Source of the DNA: Bacilli bacterium
GTDB lineage: Bacteria; Bacillota_I; Bacilli_A; Izemoplasmatales; Hujiaoplasmataceae
Assembly (NCBI GenBank): GCA_016935815.1
Contig: JAFGQH010000020.1
Coordinates: 1-33,383, forward strand
DNA length: 33,383 nt
Reading direction: 5' to 3'
In this document: positions 22,817-32,567 of the stretch, piece by piece
How positions within the stretch are numbered: the stretch's first letter is position 1
Layout: each line of letters opens with the position of its first letter
Made by a program: the position numbers and the translations under genes
The notes under the pieces: generated by a model
Databases searched by the model: none
What the model saw: only the letters and a program-made list of their open reading frames with translations
Told to the model about the DNA's origin: nothing

Positions 22817-22847
22817 AAAAGGAATGCTGGATGCATTCCTTTTTTTA
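22817..22847. terminator. Terminator between hppA and convergent gene
   Basis: AAAAGGAATGC-TGGAT-GCATTCCTTTTTTT; A and T tracts could serve both strands. Confidence 0.8.
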
Positions 22848-23924
22848 TATTGCTAATTGAAATTCTCGGAACAGAGTTTGAAACAATTCTTTGACGGAGA
22901 TGATTTTATCATTTCGATAAGCATTTTTTCCAGCAAAGGCAAACCCCTGTTTCAGATTTCCTTTCTTGGCGTTATAAAGCGCTAGGGAGATGCAATAGGG
23001 GGCTTCTTCCTTGGTGCATGTCTTGATACAATCGAAAGGACAAGCAAATGGATGTTTGGCTCCGCTTCTCACATCTGCCAGAAACGCATTGTCAATCGCT
23101 CTTCCAGGCAAGCCAACCGGACTATCGATATAAACGATGTCCTCTTCTTTGGCGTCCAGATAGGTTTGTTTGAATGCATCTGATGCATCGCATTCCGTGG
23201 TTGTTACGAATCGGGTTGCCATTTGCACACCGGAAGCGCCTTGCTTCAGAAATCGGGAGATATCGGCCCCGTCATAAATTCCTCCGGCTGCGATAATCGG
23301 TATCTTTCTCTGATATTCTTCTTCAAACGGTTTGACTGCTTGCAAGACCTCTTGCAAGAGTTTCCCGAGTTCGAAATCTTCGTTCTCAATCTCATTCTTC
23401 TTGAATCCGAGATGTCCACCGGCAAGCGGTCCTTCCAATACAAATGCATCGGGAAGGTAGTTATATTGTTGTAACCATTTCTTGGTAATGATTTTTGCGG
23501 CTCTTCCGGAGGAGATAATCGGAACCAATCTCGTCTTGGAATCCTTGGTTAGAAACTTCGGTAGATTCAATGGCAACCCTGCACCGGCGAAGATGAAGTC
23601 GATTTCTTCTTCAATCGCAGCTAGTGCCAAATCATCAAAATCCGTCAACGCTACCATGATATTCACACCTAACAATCCATTCGTCAGGGATTTCGCTTTT
23701 TTGATTTCAGAACGTAGAGCTTGAATATTATTCTCATGAGAATCTTTTATTTTTCCAAAGAACATCCCAACTCCAGCAGCCGAGATGACTCCGATGCCAC
23801 CTTCATTGGCAACGGCACTTGCAAGGTTACTCATGGATATGCCAATCCCCATCCCACCTTGTACGATCGGAACTTTTGCTTCTTTATTGCCGATTCTCAG
23901 TCTTTGCATGATTTTTTCTAACAT
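22845..23924 (-). CDS. Nitronate monooxygenase / FabK-like FMN oxidoreductase
   Basis: VPIVQGGMGIGISMSNLASAVANEGGIGVISAAGVG, VEGPLAGGHLG-type motif (LEGPLAGGHLGF), AAGGIYDGADISRFLKQGASGVQMATRFVTT. Confidence 0.9.
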   Translation of the reverse strand: MLEKIMQRLRIGNKEAKVPIVQGGMGIGISMSNLASAVANEGGIGVISAAGVGMFFGKIKDSHENNIQALRSEIKKAKSLTNGLLGVNIMVALTDFDDLALAAIEEEIDFIFAGAGLPLNLPKFLTKDSKTRLVPIISSGRAAKIITKKWLQQYNYLPDAFVLEGPLAGGHLGFKKNEIENEDFELGKLLQEVLQAVKPFEEEYQRKIPIIAAGGIYDGADISRFLKQGASGVQMATRFVTTTECDASDAFKQTYLDAKEEDIVYIDSPVGLPGRAIDNAFLADVRSGAKHPFACPFDCIKTCTKEEAPYCISLALYNAKKGNLKQGFAFAGKNAYRNDKIISVKELFQTLFREFQLAI

Positions 23925-23956: not shown

Positions 23957-23979
23957 ATTACTATATCACACATAGTAAT
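23957..23979 (-). promoter_or_regulatory. Operator-like inverted repeat within promoter of nitronate monooxygenase-like gene
   Basis: ATTACTAT-N7-ATAGTAAT perfect 8-bp arms; minus-strand promoter TTGCAA-17-TATAGT with the -10 inside the repeat. Confidence 0.6.
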
Positions 23980-25811: not shown

Positions 25812-27050
25812 CTATTTTTTATTTATCGATTTTTCTTCTTCATTGATTTGTTTCACATACATTTCTATGTCGAATTTGCGTTTTAACCCGTTATCATTCA
25901 TATATCTTAGTTTCCCAAAGATCGGTCTTTCGATCCATGCTCTGTCATGTTTTCCAAAACACCATGCAACCCCGGTATATCCGTTTGGTGTGTTCCCATC
26001 CAGAAAATACTCGTTGTTGAGTTCGATGGCTAGGTTATAAGCAAACTCATAGGATGGTGACCATTCGATGATCTTCTTGGCCCAATACATTCGCATATAG
26101 GAATGCATTCTTCCGAATAAAACCATTTCTTTCATTGCCGCATTGAAATATGGGTCATGGGTTTTGAAATGGATGTAATCTTCTTTCTCATACAAATACG
26201 CTCTTGGATCATGAAGATGCATTTGCATGGTCTGATATGCCCAAGGATAAGTCATTCCATCGAACTTGTCATAGTTCTTGTTGAAGAGGACAAAATTATA
26301 GGCGAGTTCTCTTCTCACAATCAGCTCTTCCAGGAAACTCTCATAACCGGGTTTTTTTGTTTTCACAACGATATCGTAAATCACGTTTGGCGAGATAAAC
26401 CCATATTTTAGGTAGGGACTGAGTCCGGATCGATAATCCTTGGATGGATCGTTGGCATCTTCATAATGTATCAGTTTTTCTTCGATAAACTGATTCAAAA
26501 GATCAAAAGCAGCCTGTTCTCCGATATGAGTCTCTTCCTTCATCAAAACTAATGGTTGCAGCATGAGTCTCCAGATTTTATCCCGAATCGTTTTGGCGGA
26601 GTACTCCTCTTTATCTGTCACATCAAGAGCTGGTTGAAAGACATTCGAGTCTACTTCTAATACTGAAATTCCTTGATTTTTGGCGACTTCCACAATCTTA
26701 TGAACTTGAGAAAAATCTTCTCTTAGATAAGCTTTATCCAGTACAATACCACGATATTGCGACAATTCTTGAACCCATAAATCCTGCCAATCCAATCGTT
26801 TCACTTGATCTGACAAGAGACTTAATTTCTCTTCAAGGTCTTTGGTGTGGTTTGCGAAAAACTGTTGATTGCGTTTGGATGTTTCCAAAGGCTTCATGAT
26901 AAATACTATCAAATTCCCACCATGCTTTTCTTTGCGATTCAACGCTTCATACAGTGAGTAGTTGTTCCGGATTCGGAAGGATTTGTTCATGATGTAAAGG
27001 ATATTCTTATTTTTGTTTTCTGCATAATGCAATAGTCTCACACGGCCCAT
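25812..27050 (-). CDS. Class II CPD photolyase (deoxyribodipyrimidine photo-lyase)
   Basis: FGRMHSYMRMYWAKKIIEWS, LNNEYFLDGNTPNGYTGVAWCFGKHDRAW, ELIVRRELAYNFV: FAD-binding class II photolyase motifs. Confidence 0.93.
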   Translation of the reverse strand: MGRVRLLHYAENKNKNILYIMNKSFRIRNNYSLYEALNRKEKHGGNLIVFIMKPLETSKRNQQFFANHTKDLEEKLSLLSDQVKRLDWQDLWVQELSQYRGIVLDKAYLREDFSQVHKIVEVAKNQGISVLEVDSNVFQPALDVTDKEEYSAKTIRDKIWRLMLQPLVLMKEETHIGEQAAFDLLNQFIEEKLIHYEDANDPSKDYRSGLSPYLKYGFISPNVIYDIVVKTKKPGYESFLEELIVRRELAYNFVLFNKNYDKFDGMTYPWAYQTMQMHLHDPRAYLYEKEDYIHFKTHDPYFNAAMKEMVLFGRMHSYMRMYWAKKIIEWSPSYEFAYNLAIELNNEYFLDGNTPNGYTGVAWCFGKHDRAWIERPIFGKLRYMNDNGLKRKFDIEMYVKQINEEEKSINKK

Positions 27051-27083: not shown

Positions 27084-27103
27084 AAGCAGCTGATTGGCTG
27101 CTT
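27084..27103 (-). terminator. Terminator after HAAS-domain gene
   Basis: AAGCAGC-TGATTG-GCTGCTT, overlapping the stop codon. Confidence 0.6.
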
Positions 27104-28094
27104 ATTTGGATTGTACTTTTTTGAAATATGTGGATGCGATGTCACTAACCGCACCAAGGCCTGTCAAAACAGCTAAGACGGTAAATGCAACATGGATTCC
27201 ATTTTCAATGACATCTACTGATCCATCAACCAATGTTGCTATTTCCGTTAAAAACTCCGGATTCATCAGATTGGCTGAAGTCAAGAATACGATCGTCGCA
27301 ACTGCAGAAATAATTTTCGCCGCTCCATAGAAGGCATAAACCTTGAGATTCCAGCGTCTGACTGTCAATCGATATAGATCCTCTGCGATTGTAATCGCAA
27401 AGCAAACGACAAGTAGTGGCAACAAGGCATCGGTAGTTGCGTAATTAAAGATTGGATAACTTACTGTTAATTGTAAGTTTTCATCGAACCAGAATGCGGT
27501 AAATGTATGCGACCAAAACAGATATAGGAACAAGACTCCGAAAATCATGGAGAAAATCAGTGAAAATACCGTACCTGTTTTGGAGATCTCTTTATCTCCT
27601 TGTTTTGGAAGTTCTGGCAAAAATCGCAATTCAAATTTCCACGTTCCCTTCTTCGCTCCTTGTTCAATCGCAATAAAGATCAAGGTCACAACAGCGAATG
27701 CGCTGAATGCGGAATCGATTCCTCCGGCTATCGCTTTGAAGAAGACTTCGAAGATCTTACCGATCAAACCACTTGACTCCGGATTCAATACGGAATCAAT
27801 CAATGCGACAACAAATCCGATCGACGCCATGATGATGATAGCGATTTTCAATACCATCAGATAATCATCCATCCATTCCGGACCGATCAGGTAGCGTTCT
27901 TTGCCACGATATCCGTTTGCCATTTTTCTCGGATGACCGAGTGACAGCAATACTTCTTCGATTTCTTGATCTGTCGGGTTGTCTGACAACATGTCATCGA
28001 TATTCGCTCTTAGTTCTTTTTTGACTTCCTCTCGTTGTTTCTCCGGCAAGCGTCTTGTCACATCATAGATATAACGCTCTATCATTTGTTTCAT
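27102..28094 (-). CDS. HAAS signalling domain-type membrane protein (PadR partner)
   Basis: N-terminus IERYIYDVTRRLPEKQREEVKKELRANIDDML...EEVLLSLGHPRKMANGYRG plus TM segments; adjacent to PadR. Confidence 0.8.
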   Translation of the reverse strand: MKQMIERYIYDVTRRLPEKQREEVKKELRANIDDMLSDNPTDQEIEEVLLSLGHPRKMANGYRGKERYLIGPEWMDDYLMVLKIAIIIMASIGFVVALIDSVLNPESSGLIGKIFEVFFKAIAGGIDSAFSAFAVVTLIFIAIEQGAKKGTWKFELRFLPELPKQGDKEISKTGTVFSLIFSMIFGVLFLYLFWSHTFTAFWFDENLQLTVSYPIFNYATTDALLPLLVVCFAITIAEDLYRLTVRRWNLKVYAFYGAAKIISAVATIVFLTSANLMNPEFLTEIATLVDGSVDVIENGIHVAFTVLAVLTGLGAVSDIASTYFKKVQSK

Positions 28095-28429
28095 TATCTT
28101 GTTCCCCCTATAAGTTTACTCATTTCATTGGTTATATCATTCCACTCTTCTAAGAGGAAATGATATAATTCATACCCTTCATCACTCAAAGTATAGTATT
28201 TTCTCGGCCTTGACTCCGTAGTATCCCATTCTGCCACAAGCAATCCTTGGGATTCCAGGCGTCTCATCAATGGATACAATGTCCCTGCTTCGATATTGAC
28301 TCCCTTGTCGATCAGTTTCTGTAACAAGGAGTATCCGTACTCTTTCTCAAACAACTGACTCAAGACAATCAAAATCTGCGTTCCCCTTCTGAGTTCTGTT
28401 TTGTAGGATTGGTATTGAGTTTGATCCAT
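28094..28429 (-). CDS. PadR family transcriptional regulator
   Basis: LRRGTQILIVLSQLFEKEYGYSLLQKLIDKGVNIEAGTLYPLMRRLESQGLL...RPRKYYTLSDEG; GAGGTG SD supports the start at MDQTQYQ (28429) rather than 28477. Confidence 0.93.
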   Translation of the reverse strand: MDQTQYQSYKTELRRGTQILIVLSQLFEKEYGYSLLQKLIDKGVNIEAGTLYPLMRRLESQGLLVAEWDTTESRPRKYYTLSDEGYELYHFLLEEWNDITNEMSKLIGGTR

Positions 28430-28447
28430 TTGCATCACCTCGATATC

Positions 28448-28477
28448 ATTATACTGTATGTCATACACTATTGTCAA
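28448..28477 (-). promoter_or_regulatory. padR promoter with palindromic operator in the spacer
   Basis: Minus strand TTGACA (28472-28477) - 18 nt - TATAAT (28448-28453); TGTATG-T-CATACA palindrome 28455-28467 inside the spacer. Confidence 0.72.
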
Positions 28478-28572: not shown

Positions 28573-28971
28573 TTACCAGAATAACTGGTACAGATAATAG
28601 GTAGCTACTGAAATGACAGTTGATAATACACTTCCCCACGCCAAATCGACGATGGTGACAATGATCGGCCAATCCTTGACCGTAGCCAAGTTGGTCAAAT
28701 CATAGGTCGCATAGGTGATGAATCCGAACAACAGTCCACCGATAATAATCTTTGAGATACTCTGTGCATCAATGCCTGGTTGGATCACGAAGTAAACCAA
28801 ACCAACGATGAATACCAGATAAAAGATCAACGCTGCCACATAATTCGGTGTTTCTTTCATTAGGAAACCAAGGTGTTCTTTATAGAACTTGTTTGCAACA
28901 AACGTCAACCAGACTGCATCTACTGCTAAAAATACAACAAAAGCAACCAAATACATTTTTAAGAATGTCAT
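28573..28971 (-). CDS. DUF2177 family membrane protein
   Basis: VFLAVDAVWLTFVANKFYKEHLGFLMKETPNYVAALIFYLVFIVGLVYFVI...GLLFGFITYATYDLTNLATVKDWPIIVTIVDLAWGSVLST. Confidence 0.9.
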   Translation of the reverse strand: MTFLKMYLVAFVVFLAVDAVWLTFVANKFYKEHLGFLMKETPNYVAALIFYLVFIVGLVYFVIQPGIDAQSISKIIIGGLLFGFITYATYDLTNLATVKDWPIIVTIVDLAWGSVLSTVISVATYYLYQLFW

Positions 28972-28983
28972 TGTGAACCTCCT

Positions 28984-29739
28984 CTATTTTTTCAGGAACG
29001 GAATGAACGCACTGGTGTGTTTGGCATATTCATCCCATCCCGGATATTTACTCATGCGTTTTTCCAGCAATGGAACCCCGCTCACATATCGTAACAACAA
29101 GGTAATCGCAATCGGCGCTAGGACAAGATACCATGGACCTCCTGCAAGTAAGACTATCAACCAGATGCCCCACCAGATCACAGCTTCTCCGAAGTAATTT
29201 GGATGTCTGGTATATTTCCAAAGCCCAGTTTGAATCAAAGTACCCTTTTTGCTTTTGTCACTCACATGATTTCTGAGCTGTCTGTCTCCGACAACTTCAA
29301 AGAAGTATCCAACCAAAAAGACAAAGCCTCCAATCGCTACCCAAGGAGTAAGCGTCAAATCGTTGACATTGGCGTAGTTCACTGCCAAACCGACAACGAA
29401 CATGAAGAACCCTTGCAACATATAGACTTGCAATAAGGCTCTTGGAATAACGTATTTTCCCCATTCCTCCCGCCACTTCTTGTAGCGAAAATCCTCTTCT
29501 TTGAACAAGTTGCGTTTCAAAATGTGATAGAACAATCGCAGTCCCCATAAACTCACCAAAGCATTCACAAGGATTTTGATCCAGGTGACGCTACCGGACA
29601 GAATCATCAACAACCAGGCGACCACAACGAATCCAAGTCCCCAGCCGACATCGACGATACTGTTGTTTTTGAGAATTGTTCCTAAAAGAAAGAAAATCAG
29701 AAAATATCCTAAAATAATCAAAACCGCTGTTCCCATCAT
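28984..29739 (-). CDS. DUF1295 family membrane protein (steroid 5-alpha-reductase-like)
   Basis: LIQTGLWKYTRHPNYFGEAVIWWGIWL...YVSGVPLLEKRMSKYPGWDEYAKHTSAFIPF. Confidence 0.92.
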   Translation of the reverse strand: MMGTAVLIILGYFLIFFLLGTILKNNSIVDVGWGLGFVVVAWLLMILSGSVTWIKILVNALVSLWGLRLFYHILKRNLFKEEDFRYKKWREEWGKYVIPRALLQVYMLQGFFMFVVGLAVNYANVNDLTLTPWVAIGGFVFLVGYFFEVVGDRQLRNHVSDKSKKGTLIQTGLWKYTRHPNYFGEAVIWWGIWLIVLLAGGPWYLVLAPIAITLLLRYVSGVPLLEKRMSKYPGWDEYAKHTSAFIPFLKK

Positions 29740-29745
29740 TTCCTC

Positions 29746-31515
29746 CTAATTGCGGATGTAACCGATCGCTACTGTTCCGATTCCGCTATGAATCGCAACC
29801 GCGCTCGATACTTCCGTGATGTATTCCGGACCGAAACCGATGATTTCGGTAAACATGGTTCTGTAAGTTTCTACCAATTCCTCATTCAAGCAATGAACCA
29901 AACCATAGGCTTTGATTCCTTGTGCCTGCATTTCTTTCTTGACGAGTTTGACGATGATTTTGGTAATGCCTTTTTTCGAGAATGCCATTCCATATGCCGC
30001 TCCGTGACCTTCTTTGTCCAAGGTCATGATCGGCCTCATTCTGATGAAGTTCCCAATCTTGCCGACGGCTTTGGGAACCCTGCCTCCCATCATCGCATAT
30101 TTGAAGGTATCCAAACAAACAAGAATGCTTGTTTTTTGTTTGTCGGCTTCGATCACTTGAACGACTTCATCCAATGACTTTCCTTCATTCAATAAATCGA
30201 CAGCTTGTTTGACAAGCAATCCTTCGGTGATCGAATTGTTCAAGGTATCGATCAAGCGGATCTTCTTTCCAGAATCGACATATGGTTTGATCGCTTCTTG
30301 CAGCACACCATGGGTGGCGCTTAATTTTGAAGCGACAGATAGAATCAGAATCTCTTCAAAACGAGTAGTCACTTTTTCTAATAGGTCGTGAATGCCTTTT
30401 AGAGTAGGTGTCGAAGTCGTTGGATATTCGGAAGCATTGTCTATGATATCAAACAATATCTCATTGTTGATCGTGAGTTTGTCGAAGTAATCGACACCTC
30501 CTGCATTCACACCCATTGGTAAGACAACAATATTGTTGTCATTGATATAGTCCTGTTTCAAATCCGCGATGGAATCGGTGATGACAAGAGTCTTTTGTTT
30601 GCTTTCATCCAAAGCGATATCCAAAATCATATTATCGACTTTTTGAGAGATGACTGTACCATATTTATTGAGTTCTACAAATACTTGATCCGGATGATTT
30701 GTGTGGATATGGATCCGGAAGATATTCAATCCTTTGGCGATAATCAAGGAATCTCCGTAAGTATCGAGTACTTTACGAAGTTCGGATTCATTCAAAACCT
30801 GTTCGGTTCTAACCAAACCTTCCGTACAATAACGGAAATTGACGGATTCATCGTGACGATGCGTGTCGTCCATTTCGATGGTTTCCGTGTTCATCGCTTC
30901 GAGGATCTCTTTATTATAATAGCTGTTGATTCCTTGCAAGAACAAAACAAAGCCAAAAGCACCGCTATCGACGACATTGTTCTTCTGAAGGATGGCAAGT
31001 CTTTGTTTGGTGAGTTCCAAACTCTGTTTGGCATGTTGAAAAGCCTGTTCAAAGACATGCTTGACATCATCAAACTTCTGTTTGACGATCTTAGCAAGGC
31101 TGGCAGCCCAGTCCTTGATCACCGTCAACATCGTTCCTTCCACAGGATTGGAAACGGATGCATAAGTGTAATTGACACTTGCATTCACCATTTCAGCGAA
31201 TTCTTCGATGGTCACTTCTTCTTTTCCACCCGAAGCGCTACGGAGTCCGTTGACAAACTGTGCGAAGATCACTCCACTATTGCCTCTGGCTCCATAAAGA
31301 GCAGATTCGCTGATGGTTTCCAATGCTCTGTGGAAAGAAGGATCTTTTTTCGCTTGTTTTGTGATTGCTTGCATCGTGGATGCTAAATTGTTTCCGGTAT
31401 CCGCGTCGGGAACAGGAAACACATTGATATCATTTAAGGTTTTTCGCATATTGACGATTTTGATTGTTCCATAGTGGAACATGTCATAAAGATCATATCC
31501 ATTGATTGTATTCAA
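29746..31515 (-). CDS. DAK2 (DhaL/FakA-like kinase) - DegV (FakB-like) fusion protein
   Basis: N-term NDINVFPVPDADTGNNLASTM and ALYGARGNSGVIFAQ (DAK2); FakA-like middle domain; C-term TDSIADLKQDY, TTSTPTLKGI, GGRVPKAVGKIG (DegV). AGAGGA SD favours a TTG start at 31515; the ORF track ATG is at 31569. Confidence 0.88.
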   Translation of the reverse strand: MNTINGYDLYDMFHYGTIKIVNMRKTLNDINVFPVPDADTGNNLASTMQAITKQAKKDPSFHRALETISESALYGARGNSGVIFAQFVNGLRSASGGKEEVTIEEFAEMVNASVNYTYASVSNPVEGTMLTVIKDWAASLAKIVKQKFDDVKHVFEQAFQHAKQSLELTKQRLAILQKNNVVDSGAFGFVLFLQGINSYYNKEILEAMNTETIEMDDTHRHDESVNFRYCTEGLVRTEQVLNESELRKVLDTYGDSLIIAKGLNIFRIHIHTNHPDQVFVELNKYGTVISQKVDNMILDIALDESKQKTLVITDSIADLKQDYINDNNIVVLPMGVNAGGVDYFDKLTINNEILFDIIDNASEYPTTSTPTLKGIHDLLEKVTTRFEEILILSVASKLSATHGVLQEAIKPYVDSGKKIRLIDTLNNSITEGLLVKQAVDLLNEGKSLDEVVQVIEADKQKTSILVCLDTFKYAMMGGRVPKAVGKIGNFIRMRPIMTLDKEGHGAAYGMAFSKKGITKIIVKLVKKEMQAQGIKAYGLVHCLNEELVETYRTMFTEIIGFGPEYITEVSSAVAIHSGIGTVAIGYIRN

Positions 31516-31735
31516 AACGGCACATCCTCTCAAAGTTGTATATTTCTTGACAACTACTATGTCTGACATAGATATTATATCACGAATCGATTCGAATGTG
31601 ATTTCGATTCCGTAATTTCATATCCATCCAGTAAATATTTTACTAAAAGTAAATAAAATTTCAAGCAAATTGCTTTGAATTTCAAATCAAATAAGATATG
31701 CTATTGTTGAAATCAAAATATAGGAGGGTTCAACT

Positions 31736-32527
31736 ATGGAACAAGTGAATGTTCTAAAACTGAGACGTTTTAACATGATTATGGGTGGATTGCACCTGAT
31801 TCAGGGAATTCTCATGCTGATCTTAGCAAGCAGCGTGATCCAAAACATTGCCGAATTCAAACCAACAATCACTCAAATCTATTTATCGTTCAACACCACG
31901 ACCATGTCACTGGAGACGGCCGTGAAAGCGTTGTTCGATCTACCATTCGGAGTATTGGTCGCTGTCTTCTTGTTGCTGTCGGCTTTGGCGCATGCAATCA
32001 TCTCTTTACCGAAGAAAACCAATGCGATCTACAATCGGGATTTGGAAAAAGGCATCAATAAATTCCGTTGGTTCGAATACGCGCTTTCTTCATCGATCAT
32101 GATTGTTTTGATCGCAACTTTGTTTGGTATTTATGATATCGGATCCTTGATTCTCATCTTCGTTTTGAATGCGATGATGAACATCTTCGGTCTTTATATG
32201 GAAGTTCTGAATTCAGGAAGGGAAAAGAACAACTTGAAATGGGGTCCGTTCATCTACGGATCGATTGCCGGGCTCACACCTTGGATTGTAATCATATTGT
32301 ATATGGTTGGAAACGGCAATTATGATATGGTACCTTGGTTTGTTTGGGCAATCGTCGGGACTTATTTTGTAGCTTTCAATACATTCCCGATCAATATGAT
32401 TTTGCAGTACAAACGCGTTGGCAAATGGAAAGACTATCTCTATGGAGAACGGACTTATATCGTTCTGAGTCTAGTTGCGAAATCGATTCTTGCATGGCTT
32501 GTACTGTTTGGCGCAATGCAACCGTAA
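31736..32527 (+). CDS. Heliorhodopsin
   Basis: 7-TM protein with LRRFNMIMGGLHLIQGILM, RWFEYALSSSIMIVLIATLFGIYDI, WGPFIYGSIAGLTPWIVI, LQYKRVGKWKDYLYGERTYIVLSLVAKSILAW. Lys249 (codon 32480-32482) matches the retinal lysine, Glu114 (32075-32077) the Schiff-base counterion, His20/His86 the conserved His pair. GGAGGG SD. Confidence 0.95.
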   Translation: MEQVNVLKLRRFNMIMGGLHLIQGILMLILASSVIQNIAEFKPTITQIYLSFNTTTMSLETAVKALFDLPFGVLVAVFLLLSALAHAIISLPKKTNAIYNRDLEKGINKFRWFEYALSSSIMIVLIATLFGIYDIGSLILIFVLNAMMNIFGLYMEVLNSGREKNNLKWGPFIYGSIAGLTPWIVIILYMVGNGNYDMVPWFVWAIVGTYFVAFNTFPINMILQYKRVGKWKDYLYGERTYIVLSLVAKSILAWLVLFGAMQP

Positions 32528-32536
32528 TCACAAATG

Positions 32537-32567
32537 AAAAGGACTTACATCATCGTAAGTCCTTTTT
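32537..32567. terminator. Terminator between heliorhodopsin and convergent kinase gene
   Basis: AAAAGGACTTAC-ATCATC-GTAAGTCCTTTTT. Confidence 0.8.

Follow-up and report, generated by a model that had tools for sequence, protein, structure and literature searches.

What a heliorhodopsin (HeR) does for the bacterium that makes it is the question raised by this locus. The role of HeRs is unsettled, and the proposals for it rest on a few partner studies. The window, a stretch of 33,383 nucleotides, spans an entire contig of a genome of 1.41 Mb that is about 80% complete, and the host is very likely an uncultured, wall-less member of the Izemoplasmatales. HeR is present once in that genome, and a photolyase gene stands close to it in a divergently oriented operon.

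The heliorhodopsin gene and its product

The gene and the signals read around it are:

31675 to 31702, + strand: candidate HeR promoter TTGAAT-16-TATGCT (8 of 12 consensus matches; read by hand; weak)
31722 to 31728, + strand: ribosome-binding site AGGAGGG of HeR, 7 nt before the ATG (read from the sequence)
31736 to 32527, + strand: HeR gene, 263 aa, ATG start (PF18761, NF038020, PDB 6is6 and 6su3, AlphaFold model)
32537 to 32566, no strand assigned: hairpin terminator common to HeR (+) and the convergent deoxynucleoside kinase gene (−) (minus-strand pattern; plus-strand T run read from the sequence)

The initial annotation had taken this open reading frame for a heliorhodopsin, and profile searches bear it out. 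The Pfam family PF18761 matches the protein at E=1.4e-98 (329.5 bits, cut-off 26.7) over the whole length of the profile, 1–242 of 242, and the NCBIfam equivalog NF038020, 'heliorhodopsin HeR', at E=4.3e-91 (304.8 bits, cut-off 100). The nearest solved structure in a PDB sequence search is TaHeR (6is6, E=3.3e-57), with 48C12 (6su3, E=4.9e-48) further down the list. An AlphaFold model made from an alignment of 30 relatives (pLDDT 88), compared with the known structures, leads to the same family: its top ten PDB matches are all heliorhodopsin chains, the best being 6is6 (E=7e-18, TM 0.89/0.93), and type-1 rhodopsins trail at E ~1e-4. From homology and structure prediction together it is as good as certain that the window gene is a bona fide heliorhodopsin.

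The motifs quoted at the first reading all lie where it put them (LHLIQG with His20, SALAHAII with His86, RWFEY with Glu114, and SLVAKS with Ser245 and Lys249). Alignment also agrees with the parts assigned to these residues: Lys249 (SLVAK) falls on the Schiff-base lysine of 48C12 and TaHeR, Glu114 (FRWFEY) at the counterion position falls on Glu107/Glu108 of the solved HeRs, and His20 and His86 on the two cavity histidines of 48C12/TaHeR. Each of the four is identical in 108 of 108 HeR homologues. The SxxxK motif, Ser245-Leu-Val-Ala-Lys249, is within a predicted helix (residues 234–260), and its serine is kept in all but one (107/108). Loops BC, DE and FG have 4, 3 and 4 lysines or arginines respectively, as against 2, 0 and 0 in AB, CD and EF; these charges and the predicted fold agree on the inverted topology that had been expected, probably with seven helices and a cytoplasmic N-terminus.

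This is a genuine, intact gene under selection. When it is compared with a 90%-identical relative, the differences at the three codon positions number 38/12/141, a pattern showing purifying selection on the reading frame, and 130 synonymous codons are counted with 25 non-synonymous ones. With its own ribosome-binding site, and a hairpin after its stop codon, HeR looks monocistronic. A promoter scan did not report the hand-read promoter, whose score is under the scan threshold.

HeR is present in 63 of the 120 related genomes. Two genomes of the same genus have HeRs 90% and 87% identical to the window's, each with the same kinase gene downstream, and one of these two has the whole HeR-photolyase block. 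Contamination is thus unlikely. A limited literature search found no relevant paper on HeR in Tenericutes, Izemoplasma or Peloplasma. [Sister-family genomes of 0.7–1.9 Mb have up to three HeR matches (G048, G055, G058 and G065), and type-1 rhodopsins (PF01036) occur in eight of the 120 relatives (G048, G058, G062, G064, G065, G081, G082 and G113), none with detectable Blh. On contig C12 of G031, HeR is split, with a TAA, between two matches that overlap; this may be a pseudogene or an error of assembly, and the genome keeps its photolyase. The HeR open reading frame of locus L033 (8524–9525) has about 70 extra N-terminal codons; since its HeR part begins at a TTG codon that lines up with the ATG of the window HeR, the extension is probably untranslated.]

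The divergent photolyase operon

A 166-bp gap separates HeR from a tightly packed minus-strand operon, whose order from HeR outward is DegV/FakA, DUF1295, DUF2177, PadR, HAAS and class II photolyase. This photolyase operon beside HeR is absent from the initial annotation. In the order met on moving away from HeR, its features are:

31557 to 31571, no strand assigned: perfect palindrome CTATGTCTGACATAG, candidate PadR operator, just downstream of the extended −10 of the photolyase operon
29746 to 31569, − strand: DegV-DAK2 fusion, fatty acid kinase FakA/FakB-like, first gene of the operon (PF02645 E=1.8e-53, PF02734 E=4.6e-37)
28984 to 29739, − strand: DUF1295 membrane protein, steroid reductase/ICMT-like (PF06966 E=4.3e-64)
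28573 to 28971, − strand: DUF2177 membrane protein (PF09945 E=4.9e-45)
28094 to 28477, − strand: PadR-family transcriptional regulator (PF03551 E=1e-16)
27102 to 28094, − strand: HAAS-domain membrane protein, overlapping the PadR gene (PF22564 E=5.1e-9)
25812 to 27050, − strand: class II CPD photolyase, 412 aa, short-linker clade, candidate HeR partner (PDB matches, TIGR00591, AlphaFold model)

The true start of the DegV-DAK2 gene is probably a TTG at 31515. An extended −10, TGATATAAT, reads into the operon on the minus strand. The palindrome CTATGTCTGACATAG may plausibly be a site for the PadR repressor, the assignment of the regulator being inferred. A genome-wide search finds the exact sequence once. 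A wider function, as operator of a whole regulon, was considered and rejected: near-matches are at background, 8 as against 6 in the reversed control. With a single exact copy and near-matches at that level, the palindrome is at most a local operator. A copy with two mismatches lies at 23961–23975, upstream of a nitronate monooxygenase/FabK-like gene (22845–23924).

The photolyase is predicted to have the fold of the class II CPD photolyase of Methanosarcina mazei. Its PDB matches include 8oet (E=1.9e-68) and 2xry (E=2e-67), both of that enzyme, and its AlphaFold model (pLDDT 92.8) has a TM of up to 0.91 to it. TIGR00591 (phr2) matches at E=5.6e-98, but the 329 bits are below the curated cut-off of 550. 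Equivalents of M. mazei E301, W381, W388, N403 and W421, FAD and repair residues of that enzyme, are kept. W360 is replaced by Phe and W305 by Arg, as in most Bacilli homologues, and the protein lacks a linker of some 36 residues.

Two ways in which these differences might have reflected an adaptation to HeR were discarded. The short photolyase has not lost its antenna domain for the sake of HeR, as the gap is the ~36-residue linker and the model keeps the N-terminal alpha/beta domain. Nor were key tryptophans given up for it: W360F and W305R are found equally in photolyases unlinked to HeR, and both changes are therefore uninformative on HeR. [At the equivalent of the catalytic Glu301 the window's short photolyase retains Glu, and 19 of 30 long-form photolyases (444–507 aa, HeR-linked and unlinked) have Gln.]

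Linkage of heliorhodopsin and photolyase across genomes

In the window the two genes are 4.7 kb apart and divergent. Opposite strands and several intervening genes exclude their co-transcription there. Photolyase is the commonest HeR neighbour found, in 28 of 106 distinct HeR loci and always within 6 kb, a rate biased towards the window's kin because the set includes 80 named loci chosen by similarity to the window HeR. An unbiased figure comes from a survey of the window's own family, where HeR and photolyase are within 6.5 kb of each other in 10 of the 16 genomes with both, the expectation being 0.15; these genomes are related, and the independent events are fewer.

The family shows two arrangements: in one the short photolyase belongs to a divergent block, and in the other a long photolyase and HeR form a close pair, again divergent. 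The window's block is also present in seven relatives (L033 and L120–L125), and the cultured relative Peloplasma aerotolerans has the divergent pair (L037). Other arrangements are an operon in Trichococcus, one with a class I-type photolyase in Anaerolineaceae, and, at locus L107, a same-strand run DUF1295-DUF2177-HeR-photolyase in which HeR and photolyase are spaced by 35 nt. On the best topology of the HeR tree, linkage has to change state at least 10 times, and five of these changes are forced by well-supported branches. Other members of the operon recur too: DUF2177 is near HeR in 9 loci, DUF1295 in 9 and DegV/FakA in 10.

Presence of the two genes is also associated. Among the 120 related genomes, 46 have both, 15 and 10 have one only and 49 have neither (Fisher p=7e-11, uncorrected for kinship). 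In the sister family, none of the 29 genomes with both genes has them linked, and in eight HeR-bearing members of the window's family photolyase is undetected. One of these eight is of the window's genus, is 87% complete and has a HeR that is 90% identical.

[Two further genes were seen at HeR loci. A tocopherol-cyclase-like gene (PF14249) is directly 3′ of HeR on the same strand in seven loci, among them L129 (10353–11306) and the Peloplasma/Acholeplasmataceae HeR loci L037, L055, L079 and L084. A GGDEF (diguanylate cyclase) gene adjoins the photolyase of the divergent HeR-photolyase pair in L079 (7213–8346), L037, L053, L055, L060 and L084.]

Possible roles and known systems

The initial annotation had left the choice between photoreceptor, enzyme modulator and transporter. 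The genomic context favours an enzyme-modulating photoreceptor with photolyase as its partner, and nothing favours a transporter. Helping the photolyase is the leading function, at a probability of about 0.5, on the grounds of the linkage and of a published homologue from Trichococcus flocculiformis, TfHeR, which is 76% identical to the window HeR and likewise has a class II CPD photolyase nearby. TfHeR binds that enzyme, weakly (Kd ~22 uM, from one laboratory), boosts its repair about threefold and extends repair to green light (PMC9769723). The window HeR, with its N-terminus predicted to be in the cytoplasm, all-trans retinal on Lys249 and Glu114 as counterion, would by analogy be a green-light sensor whose cytoplasmic loops act on the class II CPD photolyase of the divergent operon. 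On excitation it may bind the enzyme and raise or broaden DNA repair, as in the Trichococcus pair. The other genes there, DegV/FakA, DUF1295, DUF2177, PadR and HAAS, would complete a light-stress response operon that is probably repressed by its own PadR. The two systems differ in that TfHeR and TfPHR are in one same-strand operon while several genes separate the divergent window pair, and in that the photolyases are of different clades, the window's having the shorter linker.

Either of two substitutions in TfHeR, R162Q and K227Q, abolishes photolyase binding (PMC9769723). R162 is R162 in the window HeR, K227 is R227, a conservative change, and E97 is Ala. A test for co-evolution of the R162/K227 pair with photolyase linkage is negative: of the 72 loci that could be assessed, Lys or Arg stands at both positions in 12 of the 28 with a linked photolyase and in 20 of the 44 without one (Fisher p=1). 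The residue match with TfHeR therefore gives no independent support, and the model of HeR as a photolyase helper rests on the linkage and the published homologue. That the claimed contact residues do not follow linkage would also suit a HeR that is a general light sensor in a light-stress regulon shared with photolyase, with no contact between the two. Its output would go to another protein, be it DUF2177, DUF1295, DegV/FakA, a kinase or a regulator, and only their common usefulness in light would keep the genes together. Recurrence of the first three near HeR, the L107 operon with DUF1295 and DUF2177 in line with HeR, and the HeRs that elsewhere adjoin glutamine synthetase, ABC transporters or histidine kinases (PMC9529153, PMC11109279, PMC8612252) all point that way. 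This main rival is possible, if on the unlikely side, as photolyase is the single commonest neighbour, with varied companions and in Anaerolineaceae even of a different class, and as a direct HeR-photolyase interaction is published. Far less probable is a light-driven ion transporter. One member of the same family, the viral HeR V2HeR3 of Emiliania huxleyi virus, carries a proton current (PMC9448325), but the 76%-identical Trichococcus HeR pumps no ions (PMC9769723) and the neighbours of the window HeR give no hint of bioenergetics.

All of this supposes a chromophore, for which no synthesis gene was found in the genome or its family. No phytoene synthase is found in the 34 genomes of the family by a search that works, 25 sister-family genomes being positive. 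No RPE65-type dioxygenase is above cut-off in the 120 relatives, with controls detected. The initial annotation had suggested looking in the genome for Blh or another retinal source; none was found there. For Blh nothing exceeds the cut-off in the window's genome, the 120 relatives, 392 genomes of the phylum, 24 other HeR genomes or 301 genomes from the phylum of an Anaerolineaceae HeR bearer; since no positive control exceeded it either, absence of Blh is likely, with the sensitivity of the search unproven. An organism so lacking in retinal synthesis might make a HeR that is retinal-independent or leave it unused. This is improbable, as invariance of Lys249, Glu114, His20 and His86 and strong purifying selection would be hard to explain in a protein that never binds retinal, and external retinal can enter HeRs via a lateral opening. 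Just such uptake was proposed earlier for TaHeR, whose host cannot make retinal and which has a lateral opening (cited in PMC9385722; also PMC9296517). An invariant retinal site, together with no carotenoid or retinal synthesis gene found, makes external uptake the most economical reading, and retinal is probably scavenged from outside.

Returning to HeR as a photolyase helper, a broader proposal can be made tentatively, and is rather doubtful as a whole: that HeR, photolyase, DUF2177, DUF1295 and DegV/FakA constitute in this lineage a recurrent light-stress module, in more than one gene order, in hosts without carotenoid or retinal genes, with HeR as its retinal-scavenging sensor. HeR would then tie DNA repair and the adjustment of membrane lipids to light from outside, and perhaps to retinal from outside. 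The locus and its relatives, with their linked orders, several lineages and family genomes with one gene only, offer a panel for asking whether the partnership is general or specific to Trichococcus, and the lack of carotenoid and retinal genes throughout the family makes it a clean test case for retinal scavenging.

Of the solved HeRs, TaHeR (6is6) and 48C12 (6su3) share fold, retinal-site residues, length and inverted topology with the window HeR. They are ~40–44% identical to it, are from archaeal or actinobacterial hosts and have different neighbours. The HeR family was already known, as were photolyase, DUF2177 and DegV as neighbours. Cho et al. 2024 (PMC11109279) distinguished ten groups of HeR neighbours, photolyase and DUF2177 among them; in that survey DUF2177 is paired with an alpha/beta hydrolase and photolyase with DUF2238. 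DegV appears as an earlier-published neighbour in a citation within PMC9385722. Lack of carotenoid genes throughout the family is new. In contrast to the groups of that survey, the window has photolyase and DUF2177 at the same locus, where DUF1295 and DegV/FakA are present too. Photolyase, DUF2177 and DegV together in one locus are thus new, and so is the recurrence of HeR-photolyase linkage, in several gene orders, in Izemoplasmatales and Acholeplasmataceae-type genomes.
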